Assembly: GCA_021827685.1 (NCBI GenBank)
Contig: JAKAUM010000008.1
Location: forward strand, 1 to 45,334
Length of the DNA stretch: 45,334 nt
Direction of reading: 5' to 3'
Origin: a bacterium
GTDB lineage: Bacteria > Patescibacteriota > Minisyncoccia > UBA6257 > 2-01-FULL-56-20
This document shows, piece after piece, positions 10,780 to 16,683 of this stretch. The notes under the pieces are model-generated. The model did no database searches. It was not told where the DNA came from and saw only the letters and a list, made by a program, of their open reading frames with translations. Positions within the stretch are counted from its first letter, which is position 1. Each line of letters starts with the position of its first letter. The position numbers and the translations under genes are program-made.

Positions 10780-11217
10780 CTATTCCCCCCGCCGTATTTC
10801 GCGCTCATGCGCGCGTTTTTTGAGCGCTTCGCGCTTGTCCGATTTTTTGCGCGCCCGCCCGAGGCCAAGCTCGATTTTTATAAATCCGTGTTTTAGGTGC
10901 GCGCGGAGAGGGATCAGGGTGCGCCCCTTTTCCTGGAGCGCGCCGGCGAACCGCTTGACTTCTTCTCTCGTGAGCAGGAGCCGCCGGGCGCGGTCTTCTT
11001 CGTAGTCCGCGGGTGCGTTTCTCGGCTGATAGGGGGGGATATGCGAATTTACGAGCCACGCTTCGCCGCGGCGCACTGCGACGCGGGCGCCTGCGATCTG
11101 CATCCTGCCGCTTTTTGCGCTTTTTACTTCCTGCCCCGTCAGCTCGATTCCGGCGTCGCAGGTCTCCGCAATGTCGTAGTCGAACCGCGCCCGGCGGTTC
11201 TCCGCTATGCTTTCCAT
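10780..11217 (-). CDS. smpB: SsrA-binding protein SmpB
   Basis: SmpB binds tmRNA and delivers it to stalled ribosomes. The 145-residue protein has the whole family pattern: ENRRARFDYDIAETCDAGIELTGQEVKSAK, a VNSHIPPYQPRN segment (usually SHIxPY), RRLLLTREEVKRFAGALQEKGRTLIPL and the basic C-terminal helix LGLGRARKKSDKREALKKR. ATG at 11217 is preferred to the in-frame ATG at 11226 and the further upstream start because a TATAAT box (minus strand, 11230-11225) ends 7 nt before it, giving a leaderless mRNA. smpB and ssrA are 8.5 kb apart here, separated by the accessory block. Divergent from argS. Confidence 0.95.
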   Translation of the reverse strand: MESIAENRRARFDYDIAETCDAGIELTGQEVKSAKSGRMQIAGARVAVRRGEAWLVNSHIPPYQPRNAPADYEEDRARRLLLTREEVKRFAGALQEKGRTLIPLRAHLKHGFIKIELGLGRARKKSDKREALKKRAHEREIRRGE

Positions 11218-11224
11218 AGGTTCC

Positions 11225-11230
11225 ATTATA
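11225..11230 (-). promoter_or_regulatory. -10 box of smpB
   Basis: TATAAT on the minus strand, seven bases before the smpB ATG. No clear -35 box. Confidence 0.55.
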
Positions 11231-11286
11231 GGCGTAATATGAAGGGAAGCGTACATGCGGCAGCGCGCGGGTATGCATGCACGAAT

Positions 11287-13029
11287 ATGCGCGAGAAGAT
11301 TAAAGAGATATTAAGGGCGGTACTGAAGGAAGGCGGATATTTCGAAGACGGGGCGGCCTATGGCGGCCCTCTCGAAGTTTTCGTGCCGGAAAAGGCGGAG
11401 TTCGGCCATTATTCGACGAATGTCGCCATGAGAATTCCGGGCGGCGGGACGCCTCTTGCGCGGGCTGAGGCGATCGCGAAGGCGGCCGGCGCCGCGGCGC
11501 CGGCAGGATTTTTTGAAAAGACGGAGGCCGCGGCGCCGGGATTCGTCAATTTTTGGCTGAGCCCGGAAACGGTGCGGGGGGAGTTCGCGCGCGTCGCGCG
11601 CGAAAAGCGGTTCGGCAGGAACGGCTCCGGCGCCGGCGCGGCGGCCATCGTGGAATATTCTTCGGTGAATATCGCGAAACCGTTCCACCTCGGCCATCTT
11701 CGGAACACGGTGCTCGGCGCCGCGCTTGCGAATATTCTCGAGGCGAACGGCTACCGCGTGATCCGGTGGAATTATCTCGGCGATTGGGGCACGCAGTTCG
11801 GAAAGCTGATCGCCGCGTACAAGCAATGGGGCGACCGCCGCATAGTCCGGAAAAATCCCATCGAGGCATTGCAAAAGTTGTACGTCAGGTTCCATGCCGC
11901 CGCCGCGGAGGATCCTGAGCTCGAAGCGCGCGCGCGCGACGAATTCCGCAAGCTCGAATCGGGCGACCGCGAGAACCGGAAACTTTGGGAATGGTTCAAG
12001 GAGGAATCGCTTGCGGAGTTCAAGAAAACGTACCGCGCGCTCGGCGTCGATTTCGATGCCTGGATCGGGGAGAGTTTCTTCGAAAAAGAGCTGCGGCCGC
12101 TCGCGGCGGATCTTGCGGCGCGCGGCATCGCGGAGCGGAGCGAGGGCGCGCTCATCGTCCGCCTCGATGAATTCAATCTCCCCCCCGTCCTGATCGAAAA
12201 ATCGGACGGGGCGAGCTTATATCTCACCCGGGATATCGCGAATCTCCGCTACCGGCTTCGGAAATACAAGCCGGCGGAAATACTCTACGTAGTGGGGAAC
12301 GAGCAGTCGCTCGCATTCGCCCAGCTTTTTGCGATTGCGAAGAAGCTTGGAATGGATTCCGCTCGCCTTGCGCACGTGAAATACGGCCTCGTGCTCGGCG
12401 AGAGCGGAAAAAAAATTTCCACGCGGCGCGGCGAGGCGGTCACGGCGGCGGAGGCGATGGACAAGGCGGTTGCGCTCGCGCGCGGCGTAGTCGATGAAAA
12501 GGGGCGCGGACTCACGGAGCGCCAAAAGGATGCGGCGGCGCGAGCCGTCGGCATCGGCGCGCTCAAATATGCGAACCTCAAGGAGAACCGGCTGACGGAT
12601 ATAGTGTTTGATTGGGGCAAGATGCTCGATTTAACGGGCGACAGCGCGCCCTACCTTCAATATACCTACGCCCGCTTCGCGAGCATTTTGAGAAAAGCGC
12701 CGAAGGGCGCCGCCAGGCGCGTATCCGCCGGCGCGACCGCCGCGACCGCCGTCGTGCCCGGCAGCGAGCCGGAGCTCGCGCTCATGCGGAAGATATTCGA
12801 ATTTCCGGATGCGGTCGCGGCGGCGGGCGAAATGCATTCGACGAGCGTCGTGGCGAATTATCTCTATAAGCTTGCCGTCGCGTCGAACAGGTTTTATGAG
12901 ACGACGCCGGTGCTCGGCGAGGAGGATCGCGCGCGCCGCGCCGCGCGCCTTGCGCTCGTCGCGGTGGCCGCGCGGACCCTGCGCGACGGCCAGGCGCTCC
13001 TCGGCATCGAGTCGCCGGAGAAGATCTGA
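11287..13029 (+). CDS. argS: Arginyl-tRNA synthetase
   Basis: Class Ia synthetase charging tRNA-Arg. 580 residues, the usual length. An N-terminal Add-1 domain (1-100) is followed by the Rossmann catalytic domain with the HIGH motif as HLGH (residues 134-137, in KPFHLGHLRNTVLG), the RWNYLGDWGTQFG segment, and the KMSK-like site GKKIS (374-378). The C-terminal anticodon-binding DALR domain includes YLQYTYARFASILRKA and YLYKLAVASNRFYE. ATG at 11287 is chosen because MREKIKEIL starts the domain; the open frame continues upstream through smpB antisense sequence and is not coding there. It is followed by ileS after a 54-nt spacer with its own promoter. Confidence 0.96.
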   Translation: MREKIKEILRAVLKEGGYFEDGAAYGGPLEVFVPEKAEFGHYSTNVAMRIPGGGTPLARAEAIAKAAGAAAPAGFFEKTEAAAPGFVNFWLSPETVRGEFARVAREKRFGRNGSGAGAAAIVEYSSVNIAKPFHLGHLRNTVLGAALANILEANGYRVIRWNYLGDWGTQFGKLIAAYKQWGDRRIVRKNPIEALQKLYVRFHAAAAEDPELEARARDEFRKLESGDRENRKLWEWFKEESLAEFKKTYRALGVDFDAWIGESFFEKELRPLAADLAARGIAERSEGALIVRLDEFNLPPVLIEKSDGASLYLTRDIANLRYRLRKYKPAEILYVVGNEQSLAFAQLFAIAKKLGMDSARLAHVKYGLVLGESGKKISTRRGEAVTAAEAMDKAVALARGVVDEKGRGLTERQKDAAARAVGIGALKYANLKENRLTDIVFDWGKMLDLTGDSAPYLQYTYARFASILRKAPKGAARRVSAGATAATAVVPGSEPELALMRKIFEFPDAVAAAGEMHSTSVVANYLYKLAVASNRFYETTPVLGEEDRARRAARLALVAVAARTLRDGQALLGIESPEKI

Positions 13030-13083: not shown

Positions 13084-16000
13084 ATGGCGCCGGAACCGCG
13101 GGACTTTTTAAAGGGCCAGTTCAATCTTCCGGAGACGGAAGAAAAAATCCTCGCCTTTTGGAAAGGGAAGCGTATTTTCGAGAAGTCGCTTGCGCAGACG
13201 AAGCGCGGCAAGCCGTTCGTCTTTTACGAAGGGCCGCCGTATGCGAACGGGAAGCCCGGCATCCATCACGTCCTCGCGCGCGTCATAAAAGACGTCGTAC
13301 TGAGATATAAAACGATGCGTGGGTATCATGTTCCGCGGCGGGCGGGATGGGATACGCACGGCCTGCCGGTGGAAATGGCCGCCGAAAAGGCGCTCGGCTT
13401 CAAGACGAAACGGGAGATCGAGCAATTCGGCGTGAAGCGGTTCAACGAAGAGGCGAAGAAGCAGGTTTGGATATATAAGGAGGAGTGGGAACGGCTCACG
13501 GAGCGCATCGGCTACTGGCTCGATCTTAAAAACGCGTACGTCACGTACGCGCCGGAATACGTGGAAACGATCTGGTGGACGCTCGCGGGAATATGGCGGC
13601 GCAAACTGCTTTATAAGGGGCGCAAGGTAGTGCAGTGGTGCACGCGCTGCGGCACGGCGCTTTCCTCGCACGAGCTCGCACAGGGATATAAAGAGGTGAC
13701 GGACAGGTCGGCCTACGTAAAATTCAAGCTGAAGAAGGGCCAGAGAATCGGGAATTTTGCGGCGGACGACGCGACCTATATTCTTTCGTGGACGACGACG
13801 CCGTGGACCCTGCCGGGAAACGTCGCGCTTGCCGTGGGCGAGGATATCACGTACTCGTTCATCCGTACCGCGGCGCCGGATCGCGCCTCTTATATCGTGG
13901 CGAAAGATCTCGCGGGGGCGGTCTTGAAGGACTGCGATTTCGCCGTGCTCGGCGAGATTCCGGGCAGGCGCCTCGTGGGGCTTGAATATGAGCCGCTTTT
14001 CGACATTGCGGCGTTCCGCGGGAGTGCCGCGGCGTACAAGGTCTATCCCGCCGGATTCGTGACCACGACCGACGGCACGGGCATCGTCCATACGGCGGTC
14101 ATGTACGGCGAGGACGACTACCTGCTTGGCAAAAAGGAAGGCCTTCCGGAATACCACACGGTGGACGAGGAGGGGAAGTTCGTAGAGGGAATCCCCGGGC
14201 TTGAGGGGGACTACGTGAAAGCGGAGGGAACCGAAGAAAAGATTTTCGCCGCGCTCCGGCGCGGCGGCAATCTTCTGCGCGTCGAGCCGTACGTGCACGA
14301 ATATCCGCACTGCTGGCGTTGCGACACGCCCGTCCTGTATTACGCGCGGACGTCGTGGTTCATCAAGATGAGCTCACTGAGGAAAGAGCTCCTCGCGCGC
14401 AACAGTACGATCAATTGGATGCCGGCGCACGTGAAGAAGGGCCGTTTCGGCGAATGGCTCCGCGAAGCGAAGGACTGGAACCTCTCGCGGGAACGGTATT
14501 GGGGCGTCCCTCTCCCCGTTTGGGAATGCGCGGCCTGCGGGCATACGGAAGTGGCGGACGGGATCGACGGGCTCTCGCAGCTTGCGGGCGGCGCGCGGAA
14601 CCGCTACTGGGTGATGCGCCATGGCGAAGCGGAAAGCAACACGTTCAATATCCTCGACTCCGGCCAGCAGAAGTTCCTGCGCCTTACGCCGCGCGGCGAG
14701 CGCCAGGTCGCGGCTTCAATACGCGGTTTGCGCCGCGAGCTCGGGAAGCGCGGGGAGCGGATAGACATCCTTATTGCCTCTGACATCGCGCGCGCGAAGC
14801 AAACCGAGGCGATCGGCGCGGATGCCCTGCCGGGCGCGGAAAGGCTGCTCGACAAGCGCCTCGAAGAAATACGTTTCGGCCCCGCGCTTACGGGATATGG
14901 CGACGAAAAATACGCCGCGGCGTTCCCGACCTACGAATCGCGCTTTGAAAAGCGTCCCGAGGGCGGGGAATCGCTCCGGGACGTACGCACGCGGCTGTGG
15001 GGCTTTTTAAAGGACTGCGAAAAGAAGTACCGGGGGAAAAACATCCTGATCGTGACGCATGCATATCCGGCATGGATGCTTTTCCAGGCGGCGGAGGCAT
15101 GGAGCGAGCGCCGCGCCATTCGCGAAAAGGAAGCGCACGGCCGCAATTTTATGGATTTCGCCGAGATCAGGCCGCTCACGGTGAAGACGGCGCCGCGCGA
15201 CGATACCGGGGAAGTTGACCTGCACCGGCCGTTTGCGGACGCGATCGAGTTCCCGTGCCCGGCGTGCGCGAAGAAGGGAGCCGTTTCGGCAATGCGCCGC
15301 GTCCCCGAGGTCATCGATGTCTGGTACGATTCCGGCGCCATGCCCTTGGCGCAGGCGCATTTTCCCTTTGAGATAAGGGGCGCCGCCTCCCGTTCGCGCC
15401 GCCCGCTCGCACCCGAAGCGCATATCACATATCCCGCAGACTATATCGCGGAGGGAATGGACCAGACGCGCGGTTGGTTCTATACGATGCTGGCCGTCGC
15501 GACGGCGCTCGGCTATGAGGCGCCGTACCGCAACGTGATCGCGTTCGGGCTCGTGAACGACAAGTTCGGCCGGAAGATGTCGAAGTCCAAGGGGAACGCC
15601 ATAGAGCCGTTCGCCATGATCGACAAATACGGCGCGGACGCGCTCCGCTGGCATTTTTTCACGGGGACGCCTTTCGGCGAACCGAAGGATTTCGACGAAG
15701 AAGACGTCGCGAAGGCGTTCAGGAAGATGCACCTCATCGCGTACCACTCGTTCGTTTTTTGGAAAACGTACGCGGCGAAGAAAACGGCCCGCGGCGGAAC
15801 CGGCGCCGGTTCCGGCGCCGCGCCGAAGAGCGCGAATCTTCTCGACAAGTGGATTCTTGCGCGCCTTGCGGGGCTCGTCGCATCCGTGACGGCAAAACTG
15901 GACCGGTATGAAGTGCGCGAGGCGGCGCTCGAGACGGAATCGTTCGCGGATGATCTCTCGAGGTGGTATATCCGCCGCTCGCGCCGCCGGCTCCAGAGGC

Positions 16001-16683
16001 CGGAGCGCGCCGAGGATTACCGGGCGGCTTCGGCCACGCTCGGCTACGCGCTCCTCTCGCTCGCGAAACTCCTTGCGCCCTTTACGCCGTTTTTCGCCGA
16101 GGCGCTCTATTCCGCGCTCGGCGGGAAAAAAGAGTCGGTGCATCTCGACGCGTGGCCCTCGGCGCCGCATGGCGGGGGCGCCGCCGCGGAGAAGCTCGTT
16201 GCGGCGATGAGGGCCGTCCGCGAACTCGCCGCCGCGGGCCTCGCGAAGCGCGCGGAAGCGGGGATCAAAGTGCGCCAGCCGCTCGCATCGCTCGCGATCG
16301 GCGTGCGCCTTCCGGTGGCCCTCGCCGCCATCCTTGCCGACGAGGTGAACGTGAAAAAAATTACGACGGATCCGAAGCTCGGAAGCGGCGTCCGGCTGGA
16401 CACGGCGATTTCGCCCGAGCTTCGCGAAGAGGGGATGTTGCGCGACGCGGTCCGCATAGTGCAGGAACTGCGCCAGAAGGCGCGCCTTGCCCCGAAGGAC
16501 AGAATCGCCCTTATGGTAAGCGCCCCGGCGCCGCTTGCCGAAGTCTTTAAAAAGCGCGAGCGCGCCCTGCGCTCGGAAGTTGGCGCGAAGACGGTGGCAT
16601 ACGGCCGCTCGGAGAAGTTTTCCGCCGAGGAAGAGGTGGAAATAGAAGGCCAGCCGCTCTGGATCGCCCTGAGGAAAATCTAG
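13084..16683 (+). CDS. ileS: Isoleucyl-tRNA synthetase with an inserted histidine-phosphatase domain
   Basis: Charges tRNA-Ile; 1199 residues, about 150-200 longer than usual. Synthetase parts: the signature PYANGKPGIHHVLARVIKD (GxHH variant of HIGH, known in actinobacterial and other type-2 IleRS), a CP1 editing region with CTRCGTALSSHE, SWTTTPWTLPGN and YGEDDY, the DVWYDSGAMPLAQ motif, GRKMSKSKGN, and a C-terminal anticodon-binding domain. The zinc ribbon is split: C482xxC485 lies before and C725xxC728 after about 240 residues. Between them, about 505-690, lies a complete histidine-phosphatase fold: YWVMRHGEAESN (R512-H513-G514), LTPRGERQV, ASDIARAKQT (R570), LEEIRFG, GGESLRDVRTRL and IVTHAYP (H659). 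All key catalytic residues of that family are present, so it may be active. Its substrate is unknown. Confidence 0.96.
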   Translation: MAPEPRDFLKGQFNLPETEEKILAFWKGKRIFEKSLAQTKRGKPFVFYEGPPYANGKPGIHHVLARVIKDVVLRYKTMRGYHVPRRAGWDTHGLPVEMAAEKALGFKTKREIEQFGVKRFNEEAKKQVWIYKEEWERLTERIGYWLDLKNAYVTYAPEYVETIWWTLAGIWRRKLLYKGRKVVQWCTRCGTALSSHELAQGYKEVTDRSAYVKFKLKKGQRIGNFAADDATYILSWTTTPWTLPGNVALAVGEDITYSFIRTAAPDRASYIVAKDLAGAVLKDCDFAVLGEIPGRRLVGLEYEPLFDIAAFRGSAAAYKVYPAGFVTTTDGTGIVHTAVMYGEDDYLLGKKEGLPEYHTVDEEGKFVEGIPGLEGDYVKAEGTEEKIFAALRRGGNLLRVEPYVHEYPHCWRCDTPVLYYARTSWFIKMSSLRKELLARNSTINWMPAHVKKGRFGEWLREAKDWNLSRERYWGVPLPVWECAACGHTEVADGIDGLSQLAGGARNRYWVMRHGEAESNTFNILDSGQQKFLRLTPRGERQVAASIRGLRRELGKRGERIDILIASDIARAKQTEAIGADALPGAERLLDKRLEEIRFGPALTGYGDEKYAAAFPTYESRFEKRPEGGESLRDVRTRLWGFLKDCEKKYRGKNILIVTHAYPAWMLFQAAEAWSERRAIREKEAHGRNFMDFAEIRPLTVKTAPRDDTGEVDLHRPFADAIEFPCPACAKKGAVSAMRRVPEVIDVWYDSGAMPLAQAHFPFEIRGAASRSRRPLAPEAHITYPADYIAEGMDQTRGWFYTMLAVATALGYEAPYRNVIAFGLVNDKFGRKMSKSKGNAIEPFAMIDKYGADALRWHFFTGTPFGEPKDFDEEDVAKAFRKMHLIAYHSFVFWKTYAAKKTARGGTGAGSGAAPKSANLLDKWILARLAGLVASVTAKLDRYEVREAALETESFADDLSRWYIRRSRRRLQRPERAEDYRAASATLGYALLSLAKLLAPFTPFFAEALYSALGGKKESVHLDAWPSAPHGGGAAAEKLVAAMRAVRELAAAGLAKRAEAGIKVRQPLASLAIGVRLPVALAAILADEVNVKKITTDPKLGSGVRLDTAISPELREEGMLRDAVRIVQELRQKARLAPKDRIALMVSAPAPLAEVFKKRERALRSEVGAKTVAYGRSEKFSAEEEVEIEGQPLWIALRKI
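14593..15160 (+). other. Histidine-phosphatase domain inserted within ileS
   Basis: Region of ileS encoding the phosphoglycerate-mutase/histidine-phosphatase-like domain: RHG motif at 14617-14625, second Arg in SDIARAKQT at 14791-14793 and the second catalytic His at 15058-15060. The reading frame is continuous on both sides and GC content matches the rest of ileS, so it is a true in-frame fusion and not a chimera of two genes. The boundaries are approximate. Confidence 0.88.

Follow-up and report, generated by a model that had tools for sequence, protein, structure and literature searches.

The isoleucyl-tRNA synthetase (IleRS) encoded in the window, meaning the whole 45,334-nucleotide stretch of DNA analysed here, has a built-in histidine phosphatase (HP) that is probably catalytically competent. 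This domain would be a member of a patescibacterial family of IleRS-partner phosphatases, which are either nested in the synthetase or encoded separately in the gene order argS-hp-ileS. To judge from its residues, the HP is very likely an active enzyme, and its functional coupling to IleRS is quite likely as well. The features on which the following sections draw are:

10897..13029 (+): argS open reading frame (ORF) directly 5' of ileS; the true start lies downstream of the ORF start
13084..16683 (+): ileS, isoleucyl-tRNA synthetase (IleRS2/eukaryal-like) with nested phosphatase; 1199 aa, TIGR00392
13258..13269 (+): class I signature GIHH, a swapped form replacing HxGH; aa 59-62 of the sequence
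14527..14538 (+): zinc-ribbon knuckle 1, CxxC (C482, C485); C482 column invariant in 32 IleRS
14608..15108 (+): histidine-phosphatase domain, branch 1; aa 509-675, PF00300
14617..14622 (+): catalytic R512-H513 (RHG), with the predicted phospho-acceptor histidine; invariant in 66/66 and 80/80 HP domains (sets sharing some genomes)
14791..14793 (+): catalytic R570; invariant
14866..14868 (+): acid residue E595; E/D in 64/66 and 80/80 HP domains (same two sets)
15058..15075 (+): H659 and the IleRS-HP signature H-A-Y-P-A-W; H659 invariant, family form H-[GE]-[DY]-P-x-W
15256..15267 (+): zinc-ribbon knuckle 2, CxxC (C725, C728); invariant in 32 IleRS
15574..15588 (+): KMSKS motif; aa 831-835 of the sequence

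The synthetase

The ileS ORF, part of a 567 kb genome, runs without interruption over its 1199 codons, and its product meets the TIGR00392 ileS equivalog level (834.9 bits against a cut-off of 621.4). Both class I signatures are there. The top fold matches are P. megaterium IleRS2, yeast IleRS and T. thermophilus IleRS (1ile), and the AlphaFold2 model of the full-length protein has a mean pLDDT of 89.3 and a pTM of 0.82. The structures 1ile and 8c8v (P. megaterium IleRS2) resemble the window protein in the whole-synthetase fold, the CP1 editing region, KMSKS and the zinc ribbon. However, they have no phosphatase, and their zinc-ribbon loop is short, leaving a gap in the alignment.

Nesting of a catalytic domain in the body of a class Ia synthetase is established knowledge for the CP1 editing domain. 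That domain is a deacylase lying in another connective peptide, whereas the insert of the window protein is a phosphatase. The NCBIfam entry NF040702 (ileS_w_GNAT) likewise describes an IleRS with an extra enzyme domain, in that case an acetyltransferase. Membership of the window IleRS in this entry was rejected (score 299 against a cut-off of 1999), and the Pfam scan shows no GNAT domain. The GXHH form of the first signature is a variant reported for IleRS2 and linked to mupirocin hyper-resistance (PMC10485003). Among 114 HP-bearing IleRS scanned roughly for this motif, ~61 have GXHH or AXHH and ~49 have HXGH.

The nested phosphatase domain

The first-pass annotation had claimed a complete HP domain inside the zinc ribbon of the synthetase, and profile searches bear this out: PF00300 (His_Phos_1) matches aa 509-675 with 81.2 bits (cut-off 21.7, E 1e-22), a score so far above the cut-off that the match is far beyond chance. 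Aligned to 1ile, the window protein matches as far as aa 493, and the match resumes at aa 710, past the insert. All the motifs quoted in that annotation for the HP region are found in the protein. Of the range given there (14593-15160), the placement of the HP stands but the end is slightly generous, as the fold stops near aa 680 and is followed by a linker that runs to aa ~711.

The insertion site is the loop between the CxxC knuckles of the second zinc ribbon of the synthetase. In insert-free IleRS of the same class, '..VIGSxxEL' and 'DLHRPxxD' are joined here by a short loop. The earlier account, in which the insert divides a single zinc ribbon, is correct: an alignment of 32 IleRS shows no variation at C482, C725 and C728, and the window protein also has C485. 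Across the HP region the full-length model has pLDDT mostly >90, and a separate AlphaFold model of the domain reached 89.5. With the latter, Foldseek matched PspA, PhoE and TIGAR at probability 1.00 (E ~1e-10), and also GpgP. PhoE and PspA are the best profile matches too (104-106 bits). PhoE/YhfR (1h2e), PspA (4ij5) and CobC share the fold and catalytic residues of the window HP and are its closest solved relatives, but they are free-standing enzymes, acting as broad-specificity or small-molecule phosphatases.

Assignment to a characterised type was rejected in each case tried. The scores for a phosphoglycerate mutase (dPGM) role were 50.3 against a cut-off of 225 (NF038349) and 27.1 against 316 (NF002339), and those for CobC, PspA and SixA were 43.3 against 162.9, 32.2 against 350 and 16.4 against 74.5, respectively (equivalog cut-offs). 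The top NCBIfam match of the HP region, at 60.3 bits and below cut-off, is NF005567, a bifunctional RNase H/acid phosphatase. Here an HP is likewise joined to a nucleic-acid enzyme, but the partner is not IleRS and the fusion is end-to-end rather than nested. The charge of the window HP domain is about neutral, with no clear sign of RNA binding.

Catalytic residues and selection

A search for PF00300 within IleRS proteins, proposed in the first-pass annotation, showed the domain to be widespread and its catalytic His and Arg residues to be conserved. R512, H513, R570 and H659 never vary, either in 66 HP domains of IleRS and valyl-tRNA synthetase (ValRS) or in 80 IleRS HPs from a scan of GTDB genomes, two sets that have some genomes in common. 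In three unsaturated pairs, dN/dS of the HP was ~0.12, 0.10 and 0.08, as against 0.06-0.10 for the remainder of the synthetase. Decay of the domain is ruled out by the invariant catalytic residues together with these low ratios. The earlier reading as a natural insertion, putatively competent in catalysis, is thus upheld by the invariant residues, by strong purifying selection and by recurrence across many families and in complete genomes.

The residues that follow the second histidine set the IleRS HPs apart. H-[GE]-[DY]-P-x-W is typical of them, whereas free and ValRS HPs mostly have H-G-G/N-x-x-R at this place. The scan pattern imposed part of this signature on the 80 GTDB loci but not on the set used for the signature comparison, and the W was imposed in neither. 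As far as can be read from sequence, the IleRS HPs are a subfamily of their own, marked by this motif.

A separate phosphatase gene upstream of ileS

An ORF for a free HP of the IleRS type lies directly 5' of an insert-free ileS, on the same strand, in five genomes. Four of them (G357, G336, G397 and G301) come from the class genomes with insert-free IleRS, and the fifth (G426) was added from the phylum search. These upstream HPs score 183-204 bits, while most other free HPs remain below ~112. The gene order is argS-hp-ileS in 5/5 loci read (L242-L245 and L250), with ArgRS identified by Pfam in two loci and by eye elsewhere, and with the gene before hp only partly read in L242. The hp stop and the ileS start share an ATGA in L242 and L244, and the two genes overlap by 7 nt in L243; in L245 and L250, hp ends 4 nt and 14 nt before the ileS start. 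Two more genomes (G354 and G374) have an HP ~0.9-1.8 kb upstream of ileS.

In the tree, the operon HPs are placed among the IleRS HPs (SH-aLRT 95 for the group as a whole and 93 for a subgroup with L113 and L114). The window has argS followed by ileS, which is the order of the relatives' argS-(hp)-ileS. Fusion combined with gene order is a classical sign of functional partnership. The occurrence of the HP as a nested domain in some genomes and in argS-hp-ileS in others therefore suggests that HP and IleRS are functional partners. Their coupling is also supported by the HPs that ValRS carries at the matching site.

Distribution and evolution

The survey was systematic within the Patescibacteria. 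In the class of the window genome, 78/116 sampled genomes have the HP in a large, IleRS-sized ORF (a count of rows from a search with the IleRS-HP alignment), and the IleRS profile match is split at the HP site in ~74 of 116 genomes with a match. The split is found in ~20 of 128 genomes with IleRS in a phylum-wide sample. The GTDB scan gave 339 confirmed relatives, and at all 80 loci kept the HP lies inside an IleRS ORF at the same site, the IleRS context having been established by an upstream motif in 76 and by reading the sequence in 4. Their records are of named Parcubacteria-type genomes, with Liptonbacteria, Wolfebacteria, Jorgensenbacteria, Yonathbacteria, Campbellbacteria and Sungbacteria among the names, and three are complete genomes (AP024682.1, CP011209.1 and CP011215.1). 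The same IleRS-HP is present in L180 (QYPD01000003.1), a record labelled Spirochaetia, which is probably a misbinned Patescibacteria contig. Several genomes of the class have an insert-free IleRS and are also without an IleRS-type HP, so that the HP step is not universally needed.

The site of the HP is shared by distinct IleRS lineages. When a tree is built from the IleRS body without the insert, at least 7 changes are needed to account for the presence of the HP. The HP domains, unlike the IleRS body pattern, can be held as one clade. A single origin for the HPs of the main IleRS group and the first HPs of family f78 is not rejected (AU p 0.68; quick trees with weak deep forks). The IleRS-HP group includes neither the ValRS HPs nor the second HP of family f78. 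Either the HP passed from one IleRS lineage to another, with its site unchanged, or it underwent many losses.

Inserts in ValRS and further synthetase inserts

An HP is also found at the corresponding zinc-ribbon site of ValRS in eleven genomes of the family, 10 of which also have an IleRS HP, to go by the PF00300 match of a second large ORF. The ValRS match of the window genome (G000:C13:3618-5765) has no insert. The ValRS HPs are without the IleRS-HP signature, and a substrate common to both is therefore not assured. In two family genomes (G020 and G027), free HPs (L003:1441-2115, minus strand, and L006:1438-2097, minus strand) still have the two CxxC knuckles of a zinc ribbon like that of ValRS and are apparently a module excised from it.

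Other arrangements were seen as well. The IleRS of family f78 (L062 and L064-L068) have two tandem HPs, the first with H-A-D-P and the second like ordinary HPs (H-G-G). The 1572-aa IleRS encoded at L074:3167-7882 (+) has three HPs, each at a different site, and one of these lies between the catalytic part and the part that binds the anticodon. A ValRS of 1277 aa, encoded at L063:2327-6157 (+), combines an HP with a PF06821 serine hydrolase and, in its editing region, a HAD-like domain. In L131:1193-4780 (+), a NUDIX domain lies inside CP1 of IleRS (aa 225-343, 84.7 bits, Nudix box intact). These tandem and triple HPs, the HAD and serine-hydrolase ValRS and the NUDIX IleRS suggest that class Ia synthetases of the phylum repeatedly take up small hydrolases. 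HPs are the commonest insert type in the sample, for which sampling started from PF00300.

Four ValRS (L103, L110, L125 and L124) contain a further insert of ~100 aa, ASCH/PUA-like by eye (VLDGKTKTYRLRDHGFKVGD...), with no Pfam match in the three scanned (L103, L124 and L125). The 3564-base locus L014 holds a run of small-hydrolase genes, comprising ASCH (by Pfam), an endonuclease/exonuclease/phosphatase-like ORF, a double HP, a HIT-like ORF and a Nudix-like fragment, the last-listed gene types being called by eye. The domain types of this run are those also found inside synthetases. In L120 and L121, from two other families, fusion proteins of 550-552 aa join an HP to what looks by eye like a D-2-hydroxyacid dehydrogenase.

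Proposed function and alternative explanations

The HP would remove phosphate in the usual two steps by way of a phosphohistidine on H513, with R512, R570 and H659 lining the pocket and E595 serving as the putative proton donor. Its substrate would be a phosphomonoester that arises at, or binds to, the synthetase. The first-pass annotation had put forward tRNA ends, nucleotides or a regulatory ligand as candidates. In class Ia synthetases, the acceptor end of the tRNA passes along the connective peptides. For this reason the substrate ranked first, though a weak guess, is a phosphate at the 2'/3' terminus of the acceptor end, which the HP would clear so that the tRNA could be mended or charged. 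AMP or another adenylate by-product comes next and is a little less likely.

Several other explanations share the remaining probability. The HP might be nested cargo, that is, a general small-metabolite phosphatase lodged in a permissive loop of an essential gene, from which deletion is difficult, and unrelated to aminoacylation. The zinc-ribbon and CP1 loops do accept unrelated hydrolases (NUDIX in L131, HAD, serine hydrolase and HP in L063, three HPs in L074), the closest characterised relatives are broad-specificity phosphatases, and several family genomes have no PF00300 match other than the IleRS HP. A separate HP, however, keeps its place directly 5' of ileS in five genomes; moreover, the IleRS HPs bear their own signature, HPs occur in IleRS and ValRS of the same genomes, and tandem HPs exist, which makes the cargo explanation unlikely. 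An inactive scaffold or tRNA-binding module would fit a site in the zinc ribbon of the synthetase body, but there is very little chance of this, given catalytic residues invariant in 146 domains (two sets sharing some genomes) and the low dN/dS. An error of assembly or reading frame, the former having been considered in the first-pass annotation, is scarcely credible: the insert recurs, with its site unchanged, in many independent genomes, among them the complete AP024682.1, CP011209.1 and CP011215.1, and an assembly artefact was rejected on these grounds.

It is improbable that the HP, together with the NUDIX, HAD and serine-hydrolase inserts, serves self-protection by destroying nucleotide-like or phosphorylated inhibitors or toxic analogues at the synthetase. 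The variety of small-molecule hydrolases inserted in IleRS and ValRS, the existence of the acetyltransferase-bearing NF040702 and the GXHH type of many HP-bearing IleRS, including that of the window, which is tied to mupirocin hyper-resistance (PMC10485003), are consistent with such a role. The deep, clade-wide conservation of the HP, however, is more like housekeeping than resistance. A further point against self-protection is that we know of no phosphorylated IleRS or ValRS inhibitor handled by an HP. Some relatives of the HP are phosphoprotein phosphatases, and tethering would provide a high local concentration, so that a regulatory enzyme dephosphorylating the synthetase or a partner protein may be envisaged. 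The free operon HPs would then need the same target, and this role is more improbable still. The preferred reading remains a phosphatase that is active and coupled to IleRS.

Implications

No report of an IleRS or ValRS with an internal phosphatase, or of argS-hp-ileS, was found in open-licence PMC text, nor any of synthetase insertions in Patescibacteria or of ASCH or NUDIX domains in synthetases; automatic domain-architecture pages may list HP-IleRS uncommented. Both domains are known, and so are synthetases that bear additional domains. What may be new is the combination of an HP within IleRS. Few enzymes are as conserved as the synthetases, in which catalytic inserts, the CP1 editing domain for one, have brought quality-control chemistry to light. 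A dedicated phosphatase of IleRS and ValRS, acting in cis or in trans, might tentatively represent an unrecognised, translation-coupled dephosphorylation of tRNA ends or adenylate products during aminoacylation in Patescibacteria, and hence a second catalytic site for quality control or repair on class Ia synthetases.

The nested, operon and liberated forms of the HP make its coupling to the synthetase directly testable in vitro. An HP kept intact in the IleRS of most of a bacterial class, and present at the matching site of ValRS, suggests that a phosphate ester is important to the charging of Ile- and Val-tRNA. The Patescibacteria that host HP-IleRS have some of the smallest genomes known, and in them a dephosphorylation step seems to be tied to protein synthesis.
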